Positions 3,581-15,579 of a stretch of 42,786 nt of DNA are shown here, one piece after another. The notes below the pieces were generated by a model that did no database searches, was not told where the DNA came from, and worked only from the letters and a program-made list of their open reading frames with translations. The DNA comes from a virus, in IMG/VR virus record IMGVR_UViG_3300032285_001822, positions 1 through 42,786 of that record; one strand, 5' to 3'. Within the stretch, counting starts at the first letter, position 1. Each line of letters starts with the position of its first letter. The translations under genes and the position numbers were made by a program.

Positions 3581-3832
3581 ATGAGCTGGGCATTTCTACG
3601 CGACGCAGGATGGCGGGCATTCCGCACCTTCTGTCAAGCACTCGCGGGCCTGCTGGTCACAGCCCACGTATCCAACGCATTCAACGCCCCCTGGGTTGAC
3701 CTCGTTGGCGCCTCACTGTTGGCCGGTCTAACCAGCCTGCTGATGAGTGTCGACCGCTCCACCGTCACCCCAGTCACCGAGCCCGCAGCAGCAGCCTCTT
3801 TCACCGCTGGCTGCGGAACTGATCTGCGGTGA
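3581..3832 (+). CDS. holin, phage r1t-like
   Basis: The 83-residue protein reads MSWAFLRDAGWRAFRTF at the N-terminus and then has two hydrophobic segments (about residues 18-35 and 40-60). The second contains VDLVGASLLAGLTSLLMSV, typical of r1t-type holins. These form membrane pores that set the time of lysis and let the endolysins through. The ATG at 3581 follows AAAGGAGCACAC, one of the strongest ribosome sites in the cassette. Its stop overlaps the next gene, which encodes a likely partner holin. Confidence 0.85.
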   Translation: MSWAFLRDAGWRAFRTFCQALAGLLVTAHVSNAFNAPWVDLVGASLLAGLTSLLMSVDRSTVTPVTEPAAAASFTAGCGTDLR

Positions 3833-4170
3833 ACTTCAACTGGACCGACGCCCAGAACGGTCTAGACATCATCGACCACATCTGGATCGGCCTAGTCCTC
3901 ATCCTTGTCACCGGCATACCAAGCTGGTTCGCAGCCCGAAACCACAAAGGCATTCAAGAAGTCAAAGACCAAGTGAAGAACGGTCACACGCAAACCAACC
4001 TGCGTGACGACCTGGACCGTGTGATTGCCGCAGTCGATGATATTTGCGTCGACATGCGCGGCCTACGCCAAGACTTGGCGTTAGAAGAGGATCGCCGACG
4101 CAGTGCCGTCGCTGACCTGTACGTCGAAATTGACCACAGGACTGGTAGGCACCGCCGACAGGAGGACTGA
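3829..4170 (+). CDS. DUF2746-like membrane protein, probable second holin or holin regulator
   Basis: This GTG-started frame encodes 113 residues with one N-terminal membrane span (WIGLVLILVTGIPSWFAA, about residues 19-36) followed by a long charged helix (about 40-110) with coiled-coil character. That architecture matches the DUF2746 family found next to holins in mycobacteriophages, where two membrane proteins act together in lysis timing. It overlaps the r1t-like holin by four bases. The C-terminus is rich in Arg, Asp and Glu. Pore function itself is not shown by the sequence. Confidence 0.75.
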   Translation: MNFNWTDAQNGLDIIDHIWIGLVLILVTGIPSWFAARNHKGIQEVKDQVKNGHTQTNLRDDLDRVIAAVDDICVDMRGLRQDLALEEDRRRSAVADLYVEIDHRTGRHRRQED

Positions 4171-5708: not shown

Positions 5709-5798
5709 GTGCCCCCACCAGGGATCGAACCTGGGACCCGAAGATTAAAAGTCTCCTGCTCTACCAACTGAGCTATAGGGGCAACCGGCACAGCATAG
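5702..5798. other. attP: probable attP region
   Basis: The region immediately 3' of the integrase gene contains a complete tRNA-Lys sequence. Actinophage tyrosine integrases commonly use the 3' half of a host tRNA gene as attB, and the common core then lies within the phage copy. Here that would be the anticodon-to-3' half (about 5710-5750). Arm-type sites are not obvious by eye. The exact core cannot be set without the host sequence. Confidence 0.5.
5710..5782 (-). tRNA. tRNA-Lys (anticodon UUU)
   Basis: Read on the minus strand, the 73-nt sequence folds into a full cloverleaf. The acceptor stem is GCCCCTA with TGGGGGC, the D arm GCTC/GAGC encloses AGTTGGTA, and the anticodon stem GGAGA/TCTTC has loop CTTTTAA (anticodon TTT). 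The T arm CCAGG/CCTGG has loop TTCGATC. The discriminator base is A and CCA is not encoded. No position is broken, so it could be a working tRNA gene as well as the integration core. It lies between the rightward terminator and the integrase 3' end. A tRNA-Lys reading AAA is of interest because the tail-chaperone shift site at 30667 is also an AAA codon. Confidence 0.93.
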
Positions 5799-6716
5799 TT
5801 ACGCCGCCCGGAACGGGTCCAGCCGGTCAATCGCATCATTACGGCGGGCATTCGGAACCTGCGTATACACCTGCGTCGTCTGGATGGACGAATGCCGCAT
5901 CAGCTCCTGAACCGTCCGCAAATCCGCCCCATCCCCCAGCAGGGTCGTCGCATACCAATGCCGCAACGAGTGCGGTGTGCCCTGAATCCCCGCACGCCGC
6001 ATCGCCTGCCCAATAATGTCGGACACGCTCTTCGACCGGATCGACTCCCCAGGGCGCCGAGAGTTCCCCGGAAACCAATGCCCCACCTTGGGCATCTTCT
6101 CAGCCACCTCCACCAGAAGCGGATGCAACGGCACCCACGCCCGCTTGTTCCCCTTACCAGTGATGTGGATACGCCGAGCCCCCAAGTCGATGTCCTCGGC
6201 CCGAATCCGAGCAATCTCAGCCACCCGCAAACCCGCCAACGCCCCCAACAAAATCATCACCTTGGTCCGGTGATGAGTACGCACATTCAACAGCTTGACT
6301 AAATCAGTGTCAGCCACCGGCCGCGGCGACCGCTCCGGCCGCTTCGGCGTCTGCGTCTTATGCATCGGATTCTCAGACCGGTAATCCATCATCACCAGCC
6401 ACTTATGCCACGACATCAAGTACGAGTAGTACGTGGCAGCGGTGGACTGACTCCACTCTTCATGCTCACTCATCCACCGCGCAACATCCATCGGTTTAGA
6501 CGCCAGCGGGTCAACACCGGACTCCGACAGGAACTGCTGGATCACACGACTGCGCTCTTCGACGGTGCGCTGCGAACGTCTACCAGCTCGCTGCCACACC
6601 GCCCACTCTTCAACAAGTGGACTCAACTCCCCCGCTCTTCCCCTCGGCCCTTGAGTGGGGAATTGCATCACGTTGTCTATTTGAGTATTCATATGATTAC
6701 TCGACTTCTCAGGCAA
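5799..6716 (-). CDS. int: tyrosine integrase
   Basis: The 305-residue protein has the tyrosine-recombinase catalytic set: Arg164 (AGLRVAEIAR), a lysine in the TGKGNK beta-hairpin (Lys188), His249 and Arg252 (PHSLRHWY), His275 (RHSS), and the nucleophile Tyr284 (TTQVYTQV). Residues 30-115 form the SAM-like core-binding domain. A TTG at 6716 gives the longest product; the ATG at 6692 (MNTQID) is an equally reasonable start and would give 297 residues. The gene runs left behind the repressor with a 22-base gap, so both may share the repressor promoter. The protein ends in RAA, a possible ClpXP-type degradation tail. It would integrate the phage at a host tRNA-Lys. Confidence 0.93.
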   Translation of the reverse strand: MPEKSSNHMNTQIDNVMQFPTQGPRGRAGELSPLVEEWAVWQRAGRRSQRTVEERSRVIQQFLSESGVDPLASKPMDVARWMSEHEEWSQSTAATYYSYLMSWHKWLVMMDYRSENPMHKTQTPKRPERSPRPVADTDLVKLLNVRTHHRTKVMILLGALAGLRVAEIARIRAEDIDLGARRIHITGKGNKRAWVPLHPLLVEVAEKMPKVGHWFPGNSRRPGESIRSKSVSDIIGQAMRRAGIQGTPHSLRHWYATTLLGDGADLRTVQELMRHSSIQTTQVYTQVPNARRNDAIDRLDPFRAA

Positions 6717-7103: not shown

Positions 7104-7171
7104 CGCAATAAATCAATATGAGGGAACACGGCTCAAGCGTGGAAGCCGTCGCAACACGCCGCTTGAGGTGC

Positions 7172-7200
7172 TTGCGCAGTTTCACACATACGTCTAGTTT
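7172..7200 (+). promoter_or_regulatory. candidate rightward early promoter
   Basis: TTGCGC (7172-7177) and TAGTTT (7195-7200) are separated by 17 bases. A start site 7 bases on would fall almost exactly on the ATG at 7208, giving a leaderless mRNA, which is common in mycobacteria. No ribosome site precedes this ATG, in agreement with that idea. Confidence 0.38.
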
Positions 7201-7207
7201 GATTCGC

Positions 7208-7402
7208 ATGGCTTCAACCCCACCGCTGTCGGTTTCCCAAGCCGCTTTGATGAGCAACATTCCAAAGCGGACCCTCCAGCACGCCATTGCCAAGGGTCAA
7301 CTCAGAGCACACAAACTGCCCGGGGTAACCGGCGCTTTCCTTATCTCGCCTGTCGACTTCGACCGCTGGCTTGCCGGTCGTGACACCAAGGCCGCGTCGT
7401 GA
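7208..7402 (+). CDS. small helix-turn-helix protein, likely excisionase or Cro-like
   Basis: The 64-residue protein (from the ATG at 7208) reads LSVSQAALMSNIPKRTLQHAIAKGQLRAHKLPG...FLISPVDFDRWL. This is the layout of the MerR-like HTH_17 excisionase fold: helix-turn-helix, a small wing, then a tryptophan-containing helix. It is the first gene of the rightward early operon, opposite the repressor, so it could be Xis or Cro. An earlier in-frame ATG at 7118 would add 30 residues with no family match and would run through the promoter region, so it was not chosen. Confidence 0.72.
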   Translation: MASTPPLSVSQAALMSNIPKRTLQHAIAKGQLRAHKLPGVTGAFLISPVDFDRWLAGRDTKAAS

Positions 7403-7994: not shown

Positions 7995-8222
7995 ATGCCA
8001 ACGCTAGAGATTACCATCAACGACCTTTTGCAGGATGTCGTGAAGTATCGGGATGCCTGCGCTAGTGGCGATGTCAGCGAACACACGGAGTTCTACCTGA
8101 AGGGGTTGGACTTCGCTATGTGGCTTGTCACTGCGGCGTTCCAGCGGGTTGAGCTGGAGCATTTGAATCGGGAAGCGTTTTTCGCTGCCGAGGCTGTGCG
8201 TGTCGCGTCGGTGGTGTCGTGA
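7995..8222 (+). CDS. small hypothetical early protein
   Basis: The 75-residue protein follows AAAGGAACCAAACCA, a good ribosome site after a 60-base gap with a hairpin. It is helical and acidic at the start (ITINDLLQDVVKYRDACASGDVSEHTEFYL) and more hydrophobic in the middle (FAMWLVTAAFQ). No motif is recognised. Its last codons overlap the start of the secreted protein gene. Confidence 0.65.
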   Translation: MPTLEITINDLLQDVVKYRDACASGDVSEHTEFYLKGLDFAMWLVTAAFQRVELEHLNREAFFAAEAVRVASVVS

Positions 8223-8578
8223 TGCGTACCAGCATCCTGCGGGCGTACGCGCTGGGCATCATCACTGGTGGGTTTCTGACGGCGGGTGTGGTGTTCGCGG
8301 CGGGACCTGCCAAAGCTGACGGCACCCTGGACAGCTCAGAAACCGATTACGTCCTTACTTATGAGGGCGTTATCTGCTCAGTGGTGGACAAGTACCACTC
8401 GCCGGGTGGGGTGATGGGTGTCGTTCAGGCGATCACCAACGACGGGTTCAGTGCGGATTCCGCAATCGACATCGTCAATGCCAGTGTTCAGGACGCTTGC
8501 CCGAGGAATTGGCCGCTTCTTGTAGCCATCGGTAAAGCGGCGCGTGGTCAAGCAGCGGCTTACACGGTGACCGCATGA
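8222..8578 (+). CDS. secreted DUF732-like protein
   Basis: The 118-residue protein starts at the ATG at 8222 (a GTG one codon earlier is also possible). It has a clear signal peptide: basic MRTSILR, hydrophobic AYALGIITGGFLTAGVVFA, and a likely cut after AKA near residue 30. The mature part (YVLTYEGVICSVVDKYH...DGFSADSAIDIVNASVQDACPRNWPLL) has two cysteines and matches the pattern of DUF732, a small secreted-protein family common in mycobacteria. It may be exported during infection or lysogeny to act in the cell wall. The host-like family suggests past acquisition from the host. Confidence 0.72.
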   Translation: MRTSILRAYALGIITGGFLTAGVVFAAGPAKADGTLDSSETDYVLTYEGVICSVVDKYHSPGGVMGVVQAITNDGFSADSAIDIVNASVQDACPRNWPLLVAIGKAARGQAAAYTVTA

Positions 8579-8580
8579 GC

Positions 8581-8809
8581 GTGGCAGGCACGGCGCGGCG
8601 CGCTTTGGCATTGCATGGCTCGGCACGGCGCGGCAAGTCAGGCCCGGTTTGGTGTGGCTCGGCAGGCGTGGATGGTCCGGGCAGGGTTCGGATGGGTGCG
8701 GCGTGGCGCGGCATGGCAGGCATGGCTTGGAGTGGCGTGGCGTTTCACGGCACGGCTTGGCACGGCCCGGCAAGGCATGGCGAGGCAAGGCAGGCGTGGA
8801 GTGGCGTAA
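8581..8809. repeat. degenerate GGCNN pentanucleotide repeat tract
   Basis: About 230 bases consist largely of GGC followed by two variable bases, repeated with period 5 and a few phase slips. The cleanest part is 8748-8795 (GGCAC GGCTT GGCAC GGCCC and onward). The strand bias is strong: GGC on +, GCC on -. All three + frames stay open here because the pattern rarely makes a stop, and the longest frame (8575-8835) would encode a Trp/His/Gly/Ala/Arg-rich 86-mer. Since 5 is not a multiple of 3 and no frame is favoured, I treat the tract as non-coding or structural. It lies just upstream of the gene at 8849, which has its own ribosome site. Confidence 0.85.
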
Positions 8810-8848
8810 GCCCACGTCCCTCAAATTCTCACTGACACAAAAGGAATC

Positions 8849-9490
8849 ATGAAAATGACAACAGCCCAAGAAGTAGCAGCAATTCAGATCGACAAGATTG
8901 GCGCTCAGACGATCAAGGTTCCGGTTATCGGGACTGCGCCGCTCATCGTTCACAACTGGTCGGAGAAGGCCAAGCGTCAGATGTTGGATGCCCAGCAGGG
9001 CCGCAAAAAGGTTAAAGAAGTACGCGACCCGCACGCCGATTACGAGGCATCGCTGTACCGCATCGCAAATGAGGGCGGACACGATCTGTATGGCTTTCCG
9101 GTTTTGGCGTTCAAAGCCGCCACCATTGGCGGTGCTCGGTTTTACGACAAGTCGGTCACTATGACCATGCTCCGCCAGTGCATGTTTTTTAAGGGTGTTG
9201 TTACGAAAGCCGATCCTGCACAGCTTGTTCAGATTCACGGCGAGCCCCGTATGCGCGAAGACGTTGTACGCGTTGGTCAAGGAACCGATCTTCGTTACCG
9301 AGGCGAGTTCACCGAATGGTCAGCCGAGCTGATTATTACTTTTGTTACTTCAGCGTTGTCTCAGGGCTCGGTGTTGTCTTTGATTGACGCTGGCGGCATG
9401 GGTGTGGGCGTCGGCGAATGGCGACCGCAGCGTTCCGGCGAGTACGGCACTTTCATGGTCGACACAAGCAAGTCGATTGAGGTGCTGTAA
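8849..9490 (+). CDS. conserved phage protein with glycine-rich C-terminal loop
   Basis: The 213-residue protein begins after AAAAGGAATC. An early segment (VPVIGTAPLIVHNWSEKAKRQML) and a C-terminal glycine-rich stretch (DAGGMGVGVGEWRPQRSG) look like a conserved family seen in phages of several phyla. The Gly-rich loop before WRP is reminiscent of G-loops in RAMP/Cas7-type RNA-binding proteins, but that is only a visual resemblance. MREDVVRVGQGTDLRYRGEF is another block likely conserved. No catalytic motif is seen. It is followed directly (no gap) by the gene at 9491, and the pair sits right behind the pentamer tract. Confidence 0.7.
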   Translation: MKMTTAQEVAAIQIDKIGAQTIKVPVIGTAPLIVHNWSEKAKRQMLDAQQGRKKVKEVRDPHADYEASLYRIANEGGHDLYGFPVLAFKAATIGGARFYDKSVTMTMLRQCMFFKGVVTKADPAQLVQIHGEPRMREDVVRVGQGTDLRYRGEFTEWSAELIITFVTSALSQGSVLSLIDAGGMGVGVGEWRPQRSGEYGTFMVDTSKSIEVL

Positions 9491-9910
9491 ATGTCTGATT
9501 TGCGCAGCCAACTAACTGGCGTGTACCAGCAGCACGGTGAATTAACCCCGCAGATTGTGGTCGATGAGGCGCGTCCGTTGCAAGCACCGTTGCATCATCG
9601 CTTTGAGTGGGATGACGCGGCAGGGGCAGAGCAATATCGGTTGATTCAGGCAGCTCGGATGATTCGTTCGGTCAGGATTGAATACACCTCACCGCAGTCC
9701 GATGAAAAAAGGTTCATCCGAGCGTTCCACTCGTTACATGAGAGTGGTGAGCCTGAGCGACAGGGTTATGCGCCAACGGAGGAAATCCTAGAAAACGAAA
9801 TCACCCGTCGAATCTTGTTACGCAACATGCAACGGGACATTGCGGTCTTGAGGAACCGATACGGGCATCTCGCTGAGTTCGCCGACATGATGCAGGCGGC
9901 TATCGCATGA
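9491..9910 (+). CDS. conserved phage protein, partner of the preceding gene
   Basis: The 139-residue protein starts one base after the previous stop. It contains HHRFEWDDAAGAEQYRLIQAARMIRSVRIEY, a helical block with a WDD motif, and ends in a helix (LRNRYGHLAEFADMMQAAI). I recall similar proteins following the 8849-type gene in other phages, but cannot verify it here. No nuclease or ATPase motif is visible, so it may be a structural partner of its neighbour. Confidence 0.65.
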   Translation: MSDLRSQLTGVYQQHGELTPQIVVDEARPLQAPLHHRFEWDDAAGAEQYRLIQAARMIRSVRIEYTSPQSDEKRFIRAFHSLHESGEPERQGYAPTEEILENEITRRILLRNMQRDIAVLRNRYGHLAEFADMMQAAIA

Positions 9911-13851: not shown

Positions 13852-14287
13852 AAACGGAATCACCGACACCAACATTACCCCGGTCAGATTCCACCATCCG
13901 TGGCATGAACTTGAGGAATACCAGCCCGATGGCGGCATGTGGAGCATTCCCCGCGCCGCAGACCGCGAACAATTTATCGCCGCGTCCGCTGACCTCATGG
14001 CGGAACCGCAAAAGTTCCTGACGGCAATGTTGCGCGCCCTGGACGAGTGGCCCAAATCGTGCGACGTGGCATTCACCACCCCCGGGCTCAACTGCAAAGC
14101 GTGGATGGGACACGCAGGCTGCTACCTCGCAACAGGATCACCCGAAGAAACCACCCGTATCGGATGGCACCGTCTTGACGCCGCAGAGCAGTACGCCGCA
14201 AACGACGCCGCAGACCAAGCCATCTGCACCTGGGCTCAACGCCGAAACCAAGAACAACAGCAACTCAGCCTATTTTGGGGATTCTGA
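13841..14287 (+). CDS. conserved small protein of the ParB-PAPS reductase cassette
   Basis: The 148-residue protein (GTG at 13841) lies between the ParB-like and PAPS-reductase-like genes, overlapping one by 11 bases and the other by one. Its sequence includes HHPWHELEEYQPDGGMWSIP, CDVAFTTPGLNCKAWMGHAGCYLATGSPEETTRIGWH. Conserved-looking Cys, His and Trp residues suggest a folded domain with possible metal binding. I recognise the pattern as a phage protein but know no function. Constant location between the two would suggest a three-part complex. Confidence 0.65.
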   Translation: MFNKNGITDTNITPVRFHHPWHELEEYQPDGGMWSIPRAADREQFIAASADLMAEPQKFLTAMLRALDEWPKSCDVAFTTPGLNCKAWMGHAGCYLATGSPEETTRIGWHRLDAAEQYAANDAADQAICTWAQRRNQEQQQLSLFWGF

Positions 14288-15579
14288 TGCCAAAAACACC
14301 GTTAGGAATGGACGTACTGACCGCCGCCCGCCAACGAGTCCAATGGACGTTTGACAACTTCGAACGCGTCTACGTGTCCTACTCGGCCGGAAAAGACTCC
14401 ACCGTAATGCTGTACCTCGTTGAAGAAGAAGCACGGAAACGCAACCGCCGCTTCGGTGTTCTCCTGGTCGATTTGGAAGGCCAGTACCAATGCACCATTG
14501 ACCACGCGGAACAACAGCTTGCCCGCATCGCAGACATCACCGATCAATACTGGGTGTGCTTGCCCATCGCACTTCGCAACGCGGTATCGGTGTACCAACC
14601 CAAGTGGCAGTGCTGGGAACCCGGCAAGGAAGACGCCTGGATCAGGCCGATGCCGAACCGGCACGTCATCAGCGATGAAAACTTTTTCCCGTTTTTCAGC
14701 CGCGACATGGAGTTTGAGGAGTTCGTTCCCGAGTTCGGTGAATGGTATTCCCAAGGGGAACGAACCGCTTGCCTCGTAGGTATCCGCTCCGACGAATCCC
14801 TGAACCGGTTCCGCACCATCGCATCAACGACCAAAGTCACTTTAGACGGGAAGCAATACACCAGCCTCGTCACCGACCACGTCTACAACGTCTACCCCAT
14901 CTACGACTGGCGCACTCAAGACATTTGGACATACCACGCCCACAACAAAAACTTGCCCTACAACCACCTGTACGACCTTATGGGCATGGCCGGACTATCC
15001 ATCCACCACATGCGCATCTGCCAACCCTACGGAGATGACCAACGCCGCGGCCTGTGGCTGTTTCACCTCATCGAACCCGAAACATGGGCACGCGTCGTGG
15101 CACGCGTCAACGGAGCCAACAGCGGCGCTCTATACGTCCAAGAGTGGGGAAACATCAACGGCTACCGGCGCATCACAAAACCCGAGGGCCACACCTGGGA
15201 ATCATTCGCCAAACTTCTCATCGAATCCATGCCGCCGCAGATGACTCAGCACTACGCCGACAAAGTTCTCCTATTTCAACGCTGGTGGATGAACCGCGGC
15301 TACCCCGATGGAATCCCCGATGAAGCGCCCTACGCCCTTGAAGCCAAACGCCTAGCCCCGTCGTGGAGACGCGTATGCAAGTCCCTACTTCGCAACGACT
15401 ATTGGTGCAAAGGATTGGGATTCAGTCAACACAAATCCGCCGCTTACACCAAATATCAAGAAATGATGCGCCGCCGACGCGGCTCCTGGGGTGTCACAGA
15501 CGGATCAATTGCAGCCACCGAACAAATGTTAGACCCCGGTCAGGGTGAGTTGTTTGTCCTTGAACAAGAGGTGTGCTGA
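14287..15579 (+). CDS. PAPS reductase/IbrA-like ATP pyrophosphatase-family protein
   Basis: The 430-residue protein carries the PP-loop SAGKDST (residues 33-39) of the adenine-nucleotide alpha-hydrolase fold. It is followed by a long domain like DUF3440/IbrA (RNAVSVYQPKWQCWEPGKEDAW, then YPIYDWRTQDIWTY...HMRICQPYGDDQRRGL). These proteins activate substrates with ATP and may transfer sulphur, as in DndC, though the substrate in phages is unknown. Gene order ParB-like, small protein, PAPS reductase-like makes a self-contained cassette. The ATG at 14287 overlaps the previous stop; a TTG at 14275 is less likely. Confidence 0.8.
   Translation: MPKTPLGMDVLTAARQRVQWTFDNFERVYVSYSAGKDSTVMLYLVEEEARKRNRRFGVLLVDLEGQYQCTIDHAEQQLARIADITDQYWVCLPIALRNAVSVYQPKWQCWEPGKEDAWIRPMPNRHVISDENFFPFFSRDMEFEEFVPEFGEWYSQGERTACLVGIRSDESLNRFRTIASTTKVTLDGKQYTSLVTDHVYNVYPIYDWRTQDIWTYHAHNKNLPYNHLYDLMGMAGLSIHHMRICQPYGDDQRRGLWLFHLIEPETWARVVARVNGANSGALYVQEWGNINGYRRITKPEGHTWESFAKLLIESMPPQMTQHYADKVLLFQRWWMNRGYPDGIPDEAPYALEAKRLAPSWRRVCKSLLRNDYWCKGLGFSQHKSAAYTKYQEMMRRRRGSWGVTDGSIAATEQMLDPGQGELFVLEQEVC

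Follow-up and report, generated by a model that had tools for sequence, protein, structure and literature searches.

The closest described counterpart of the locus analysed here is the Viral Interference Programmable Repeat (VIPR) system, reported in 2026 in a preprint from the Doudna laboratory (PMC13142463), which was the only VIPR paper of its kind in the literature searched. A VIPR system consists of a Vipr protein, a vap gene and vrRNAs that are composed of GGY/NN repeats and have a length of 9–16 repeats (PMC13142463). The vrRNA binds double-stranded DNA, skipping one target base between dinucleotides, and the guide function of the variable NN on DNA targets was demonstrated experimentally for the systems of the Escherichia phage SUSP1 and of a Pseudomonas fulva prophage (PMC13142463). 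The targets studied were a competing phage, prophage or satellite, and the reported effects included repression, defence against phage lambda and prophage induction (PMC13142463). The preprint distinguishes seven VIPR types, and ascribes 'staggered arrays with overlapping vrRNAs' to some of them (PMC13142463).

The stretch of DNA that we analysed, hereafter the window, is a viral record of 42,786 bases with genes for terminase, portal, protease, major tail, tape measure and minor tail proteins and for endolysins. The packaging genes are similar to their counterparts in phages of Mycobacterium, Gordonia, Arthrobacter and Propionibacterium. Since an integrase and an excisionase-like gene are also present, we regard the window as a temperate phage, most likely with an actinobacterial host. 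The features that matter at this level are as follows.

5709–5782, minus strand: tRNA-Lys (anticodon ttt), at a distance of 16 bases from the gene for the tyrosine integrase.
5799–6716, minus strand: tyrosine integrase.
7118–7402: excisionase-like gene.
8219–8578: small protein, weakly matching DUF732 (E 0.012), immediately 5′ of the array.
8583–8807 (about), plus strand: putative GGYNN guide (vrRNA) array punctuated by GGCA, assigned by its periodicity and by GGCA being the commonest punctuation across 112 loci.
8849–9490, plus strand: vipr, a RAMP/Cas7-like, putative guide-RNA-binding protein of 213 aa (phrog_4652), assigned by homology to SUSP1 Vipr (36pp), predicted fold and conserved residues.
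9491–9910, plus strand: putative vap (vipr accessory), 139 aa (phrog_15946), with homologues at 87 of 98 vipr loci.
14275–15579: phosphoadenosine phosphosulfate reductase-like gene (phrog_2302, E 3e-87).

We conclude, with a probability of about 0.9, that positions 8583–9910 constitute a VIPR locus in which the array would yield vrRNA guides that form a ribonucleoprotein with Vipr and act by skip-rule repression. Our confidence is high that the system is VIPR and moderate that it is active. The locus lies close to the integrase and excisionase genes, as it does in Gordonia phage UmaThurman. The tRNA-Lys gene may mark the attachment site. DUF732 is a mycobacterial family of secreted proteins. 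The reductase-like gene would be either an auxiliary metabolic gene or a member of a DNA-modification pathway.

The preliminary description of this DNA had drawn attention to a strand-biased GGC-N-N rhythm of some 230 bases, followed directly by two genes at 8849–9490 and 9491–9910, and both observations were borne out. The 226 bases from 8583 to 8808 contain 38 GGY triplets, with 24 exact five-base and 4 exact four-base steps between them. In 2000 doublet-preserving shuffles of the tract, the number of five-base steps was 2.4 ± 1.5 with a maximum of 8, other 226-base stretches of the window never exceeded 4, and the reverse strand of the tract had zero such GGY steps. Because the tract is free of stops in all three forward frames, the open reading frame at 8575–8835 is incidental. 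Annotated 'hypothetical proteins' likewise overlie the guide arrays of the phages Gorge (L011, 1132–1296), Donkeykong (L012, 980–1366) and ByChance (L014, 1133–1291); these are likely spurious, the repeat being stop-free.

Read in pentamers, the tract runs GGCA, 10 pentamers, GTCA, 4 pentamers, GGCA, 10 pentamers, GGCA, 14 pentamers, GGCA, 3 pentamers and a predicted hairpin, which gives the following parts, all on the plus strand.

8583–8586: first GGCA punctuation.
8587–8660: proposed guide unit U1, NN = AC GC GC TT AT AT TC AC GC AA (GTCA at 8637–8640) CC TT GT TC.
8661–8664: GGCA punctuation.
8665–8714: proposed guide unit U2, 10 pentamers, NN = GT TG CG AG TC TG GC GT GC AT.
8715–8718: GGCA punctuation.
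8719–8788: proposed guide unit U3, 14 pentamers, NN = AT TT GT GT GT AC AC TT AC CC AA AT GA AA.
8789–8792: last GGCA punctuation.
8793–8816: three final pentamers and a 3′ hairpin (CGTGG 8795–8799 / CCACG 8812–8816), predicted from sequence and RNA folding.

Provided that GGCA marks unit ends, U2 has 10 repeats, U3 has 14 and U1, if it is a single unit, 14–15. The GTCA within U1 may be a pentamer that has lost one base or a degenerate punctuation. RNA folding predicted a structured 3′ tail in the window solely at the array end, and other hairpins at the same place in several relatives; the one at 8795–8816 is a candidate vrRNA tail. In the 12 loci compared with Rfam, a tRNA in the window was the only known RNA family detected, and hammerheads were absent; neither a sigma-70 promoter nor an intrinsic terminator was found near the window array.

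The protein encoded at 8849–9490 belongs to a family listed as of unknown function and has no Pfam match. When it was searched against the sequences in the PDB, the sole meaningful match was the solved 'SUSP1 Vipr protein' 36pp (phmmer E 3.4e-5), and a profile search raised the match to E 1.2e-10. An AlphaFold2 model (pLDDT 85.5, pTM 0.81) was compared with the PDB by Foldseek, where the best 50 matches were all CRISPR effector chains (Csm, type VII, Cas7-11, Cascade and Cmr; top E 2.3e-6). The full-length TM-scores against RAMPs were modest (0.36–0.52), so the relation is a distant one. Furthermore, R151, W157, G183, G187, G189 and R192-P193 were conserved in 26 relatives (the list of invariant residues omits G189), and these positions lie in or around the glycine-rich loop. 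The earlier suggestion, based on this loop, of a RAMP/Cas7-like RNA-binding protein thus gained the support of a profile match and a predicted fold, with CRISPR RAMPs rather than any clearly unrelated fold as the best matches. Judged by homology and modelled structure, the protein is Vipr.

The gene at 9491–9910 occupies the vap position beside vipr, and its family too is listed as of unknown function. Its product was modelled with a pLDDT of 89, and the model had no significant match in the PDB; weak matches began at E 0.3 and included winged-helix proteins (E >1), which would fit, if weakly, a DNA-binding role. Pfam returned no accessory function, and no sequence kinship with the vap of SUSP1/LESphi2 (SUSP1 vap1) was detectable. 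We therefore designate the gene as a putative vap, tentatively. In the phage Gorge, a single annotated open reading frame (gp54; L011, 1333–2550) spans vipr and the second gene, and tblastn joins the two pieces, which suggests a frameshift or a fusion.

Vipr relatives were found in 34 phage records, namely 27 from Mycobacterium phages, 5 from Gordonia phages, 1 from a cyanophage and 1 from a Pseudomonas phage, and in a further 18 genome contigs and 190 viral contigs, with 80 kept. A GGYNN tract was present in 104 of the 112 Vipr-bearing loci, a set that includes duplicates of some phages, with 174 tracts on the vipr strand versus 5 on the opposite strand. By contrast, 50 unrelated viral loci (441 kb) contained none. 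The statement in the preliminary description that similar tracts exist in unrelated phages was correct, as was its idea that the tract and the first gene belong together. In the relatives' arrays, the GGY consensus bases are kept at 75–93% per position, the third being C or T in 94%, and all four bases occur at the NN positions. It could be argued that the tract is a low-complexity, GC-biased slippage repeat that has no role and stands beside the gene by accident, given the degeneracy of the copy in the window and its weak score in a tandem-repeat finder. However, free variation of NN with retention of GGY is the opposite of what slippage produces, and this, together with the joint occurrence of array and vipr, makes an accidental repeat extremely improbable.

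The location of the tract bears on another explanation, according to which it regulates the vipr operon in cis, as an RNA or DNA element (leader, decoy or assembly scaffold), and guides nothing. In line with this, both the window and the Mycobacterium phages have the tract immediately 5′ of vipr. However, Gordonia phages have it between vipr and the second gene, and many loci have it downstream of both, so its position relative to a promoter is not kept. In addition, the window and locus L033 have Vipr proteins that are 88% identical and, by eye, zero common units, and such a complete turnover of units speaks against a cis-acting element, which we consider very improbable. The initial proposal of an RNA scaffold, a binding array or a decoy came close; a guide-RNA array in which NN specifies DNA targets is the better reading.

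Across the 112 loci, GGCA made up 823 of 1105 four-base steps, and 634 of 939 intervals between four-base steps were exact multiples of five, compared with 20% expected by chance; unit lengths of 8–12 pentamers were the commonest. From these patterns in the sequence, GGCA would mark guide ends. Among close Mycobacterium phages, entire GGCA-bounded units were either present or absent: ByChance lacks one unit found in Saal and Gorge, and Donkeykong has two units absent from Brocalys. The largest arrays were found on two contigs of one metagenome.

L046/L301 array: 3980 bases with 95 four-base steps, contig G415, 11619–15598 of the locus.
L103/L304 array: 3502 bases with 93 four-base steps, contig G447, 15980–19481 of the locus.

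These two arrays have six exact units in common, in the same order, in which they are like related CRISPR arrays. No adaptation gene was recognised beside the largest array in a known-family search of eight reading frames, which was not exhaustive and returned only a weak bacterial Ig-like match.

Guides were then decoded as NNxNNx and compared with 111 vipr genes at a cut-off of log10 E < −3. With a skip of one base, three guides passed this cut-off, whereas skips of 0, 2 or 3 yielded none, and neither did 1805 shuffled guides; the E-values are rough, as equal base frequencies were assumed, and the shuffles are the better control. The guide at 3624–3693 of L042 matched the vipr gene of L044 (25/28), that at 4078–4117 of L019 matched those of L026 and L098 (16/16), and that at 3618–3667 of L058 matched that of L042 (18/20). 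In all three cases the skipped base was codon position 3, and the matched peptides were conserved Vipr motifs, for example EKDGDFGTY, EDMVRVG and TYVMSSLSR. This codon register is a further argument against a slippage repeat. The fit to the guides' own vipr genes was poorer (L042, 20/28; L019, 13/16; L058, 11/20). These sequence matches suggest that rival VIPRs target vipr genes. L042 and L058 come from a common metagenome. Each of the three guides is the first unit of its array, which may reflect the order of gain or expression, with three cases only. In a wider set of 2.6 Mb, the L042 match remained clear (log10 E −5.2), those of L019 and L058 dropped to −2.9 and −2.1, and no additional target outside vipr genes stood out; loci that had been retrieved with the patterns of the guides themselves were preselected, and matches in them were not counted.

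The guides of the window had matches at chance level only, both in this wider set and in the searches that follow. Six exact 8-dinucleotide patterns from U1, U2 and U3 gave 12–41 matches each in the viral_contigs set, none of which extended convincingly along the guide. The matches to U1 were rejected as targets, since unrelated proteins have AVDIIKAA-like peptides in common and the matches are therefore due to chance. In 399 Mycobacteriales genomes, U3 had no match with 3 mismatches allowed, and U1, with 1 mismatch allowed, had 1 match compared with 1 in the control. Self-targeting by the window guides was not found, and a guide common to Mycobacterium phages had 2 unremarkable matches only.

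The absence of a target for the window guides would also be expected if vipr and vap were kept in a VIPR locus that no longer has working targeting, the array having decayed. Indeed, several GGY triplets have been lost, the pentamer at 8637 is apparently one base short, and the window array is more degenerate than those of close relatives (triplets GCT, TGC, TTC, GGA and GTC), so some of its units may be decaying. Nevertheless, all arrays, even those whose vipr targets are clear, have many degenerate triplets (GTC, GGA, GAC and CGC), and vipr and vap are intact with their residues conserved. We therefore hold a decayed array to be rather unlikely, and favour a VIPR locus with guides that can be used.

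In such a locus, the GGYNN array would be transcribed into vrRNA guides, and Vipr, as a minimal RAMP, would hold the GGY motifs along the guide to form a ribonucleoprotein. The NN dinucleotides would then be free to pair with double-stranded DNA, one target base being skipped between them (NNxNNx...), and the bound complex would block transcription of the target and so cause repression. We propose that the GGCA words are boundaries between guides, in which case the window array has two to four guides, and that the gene at 9491 has an accessory (vap) role.

We assign phrog_4652 to Vipr and, tentatively, phrog_15946 to vap. Two widespread 'hypothetical protein' families of actinobacteriophages, whose carriers include cultivated Mycobacterium smegmatis and Gordonia phages, would thereby become parts of a programmable RNA-guided system amenable to study in safe laboratory hosts, and the one-base-skip code gains support from natural sequences in a clade beyond those tested experimentally in the preprint. 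It is conceivable, although doubtful at present, that the arrays of this actinobacterial clade are guide libraries, with cassettes of about 10 pentamers gained, lost and kept in order like CRISPR spacers, and with conserved codons of rival vipr genes as the recurrent target. If this were true, the libraries would amount to a guide memory that grows without a recognised adaptation gene, and they might have implications for how CRISPR arrays arose.

Compared with CRISPR-Cas class 1 systems, the locus shares with their RAMPs (Csm3/Cas7 family) the predicted fold and the glycine-rich loop. Unlike these systems, it has no CRISPR array, its RAMP is single and small, and its repeats are pentamers; among the window proteins tested, cas families had no Pfam or PADLOC match. 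With the VIPR systems of SUSP1 and the P. fulva prophage, it has in common a Vipr RAMP, an adjoining second gene, GGY/NN tandem repeats and its phage-borne nature, but its second gene has no detectable homology to SUSP1 vap1. The natural guides of its relatives are VIPR-like in their one-base skip, which falls at the wobble position. The SUSP1 vrRNAs are separate RNAs of ~100 nt with a conserved tail after each, whereas the guides in the window are continuous, without tails, parted by GGCA and followed by a single predicted hairpin at the array end. This architecture may correspond to the staggered arrays with overlapping vrRNAs to which fig. S18 of the preprint refers.
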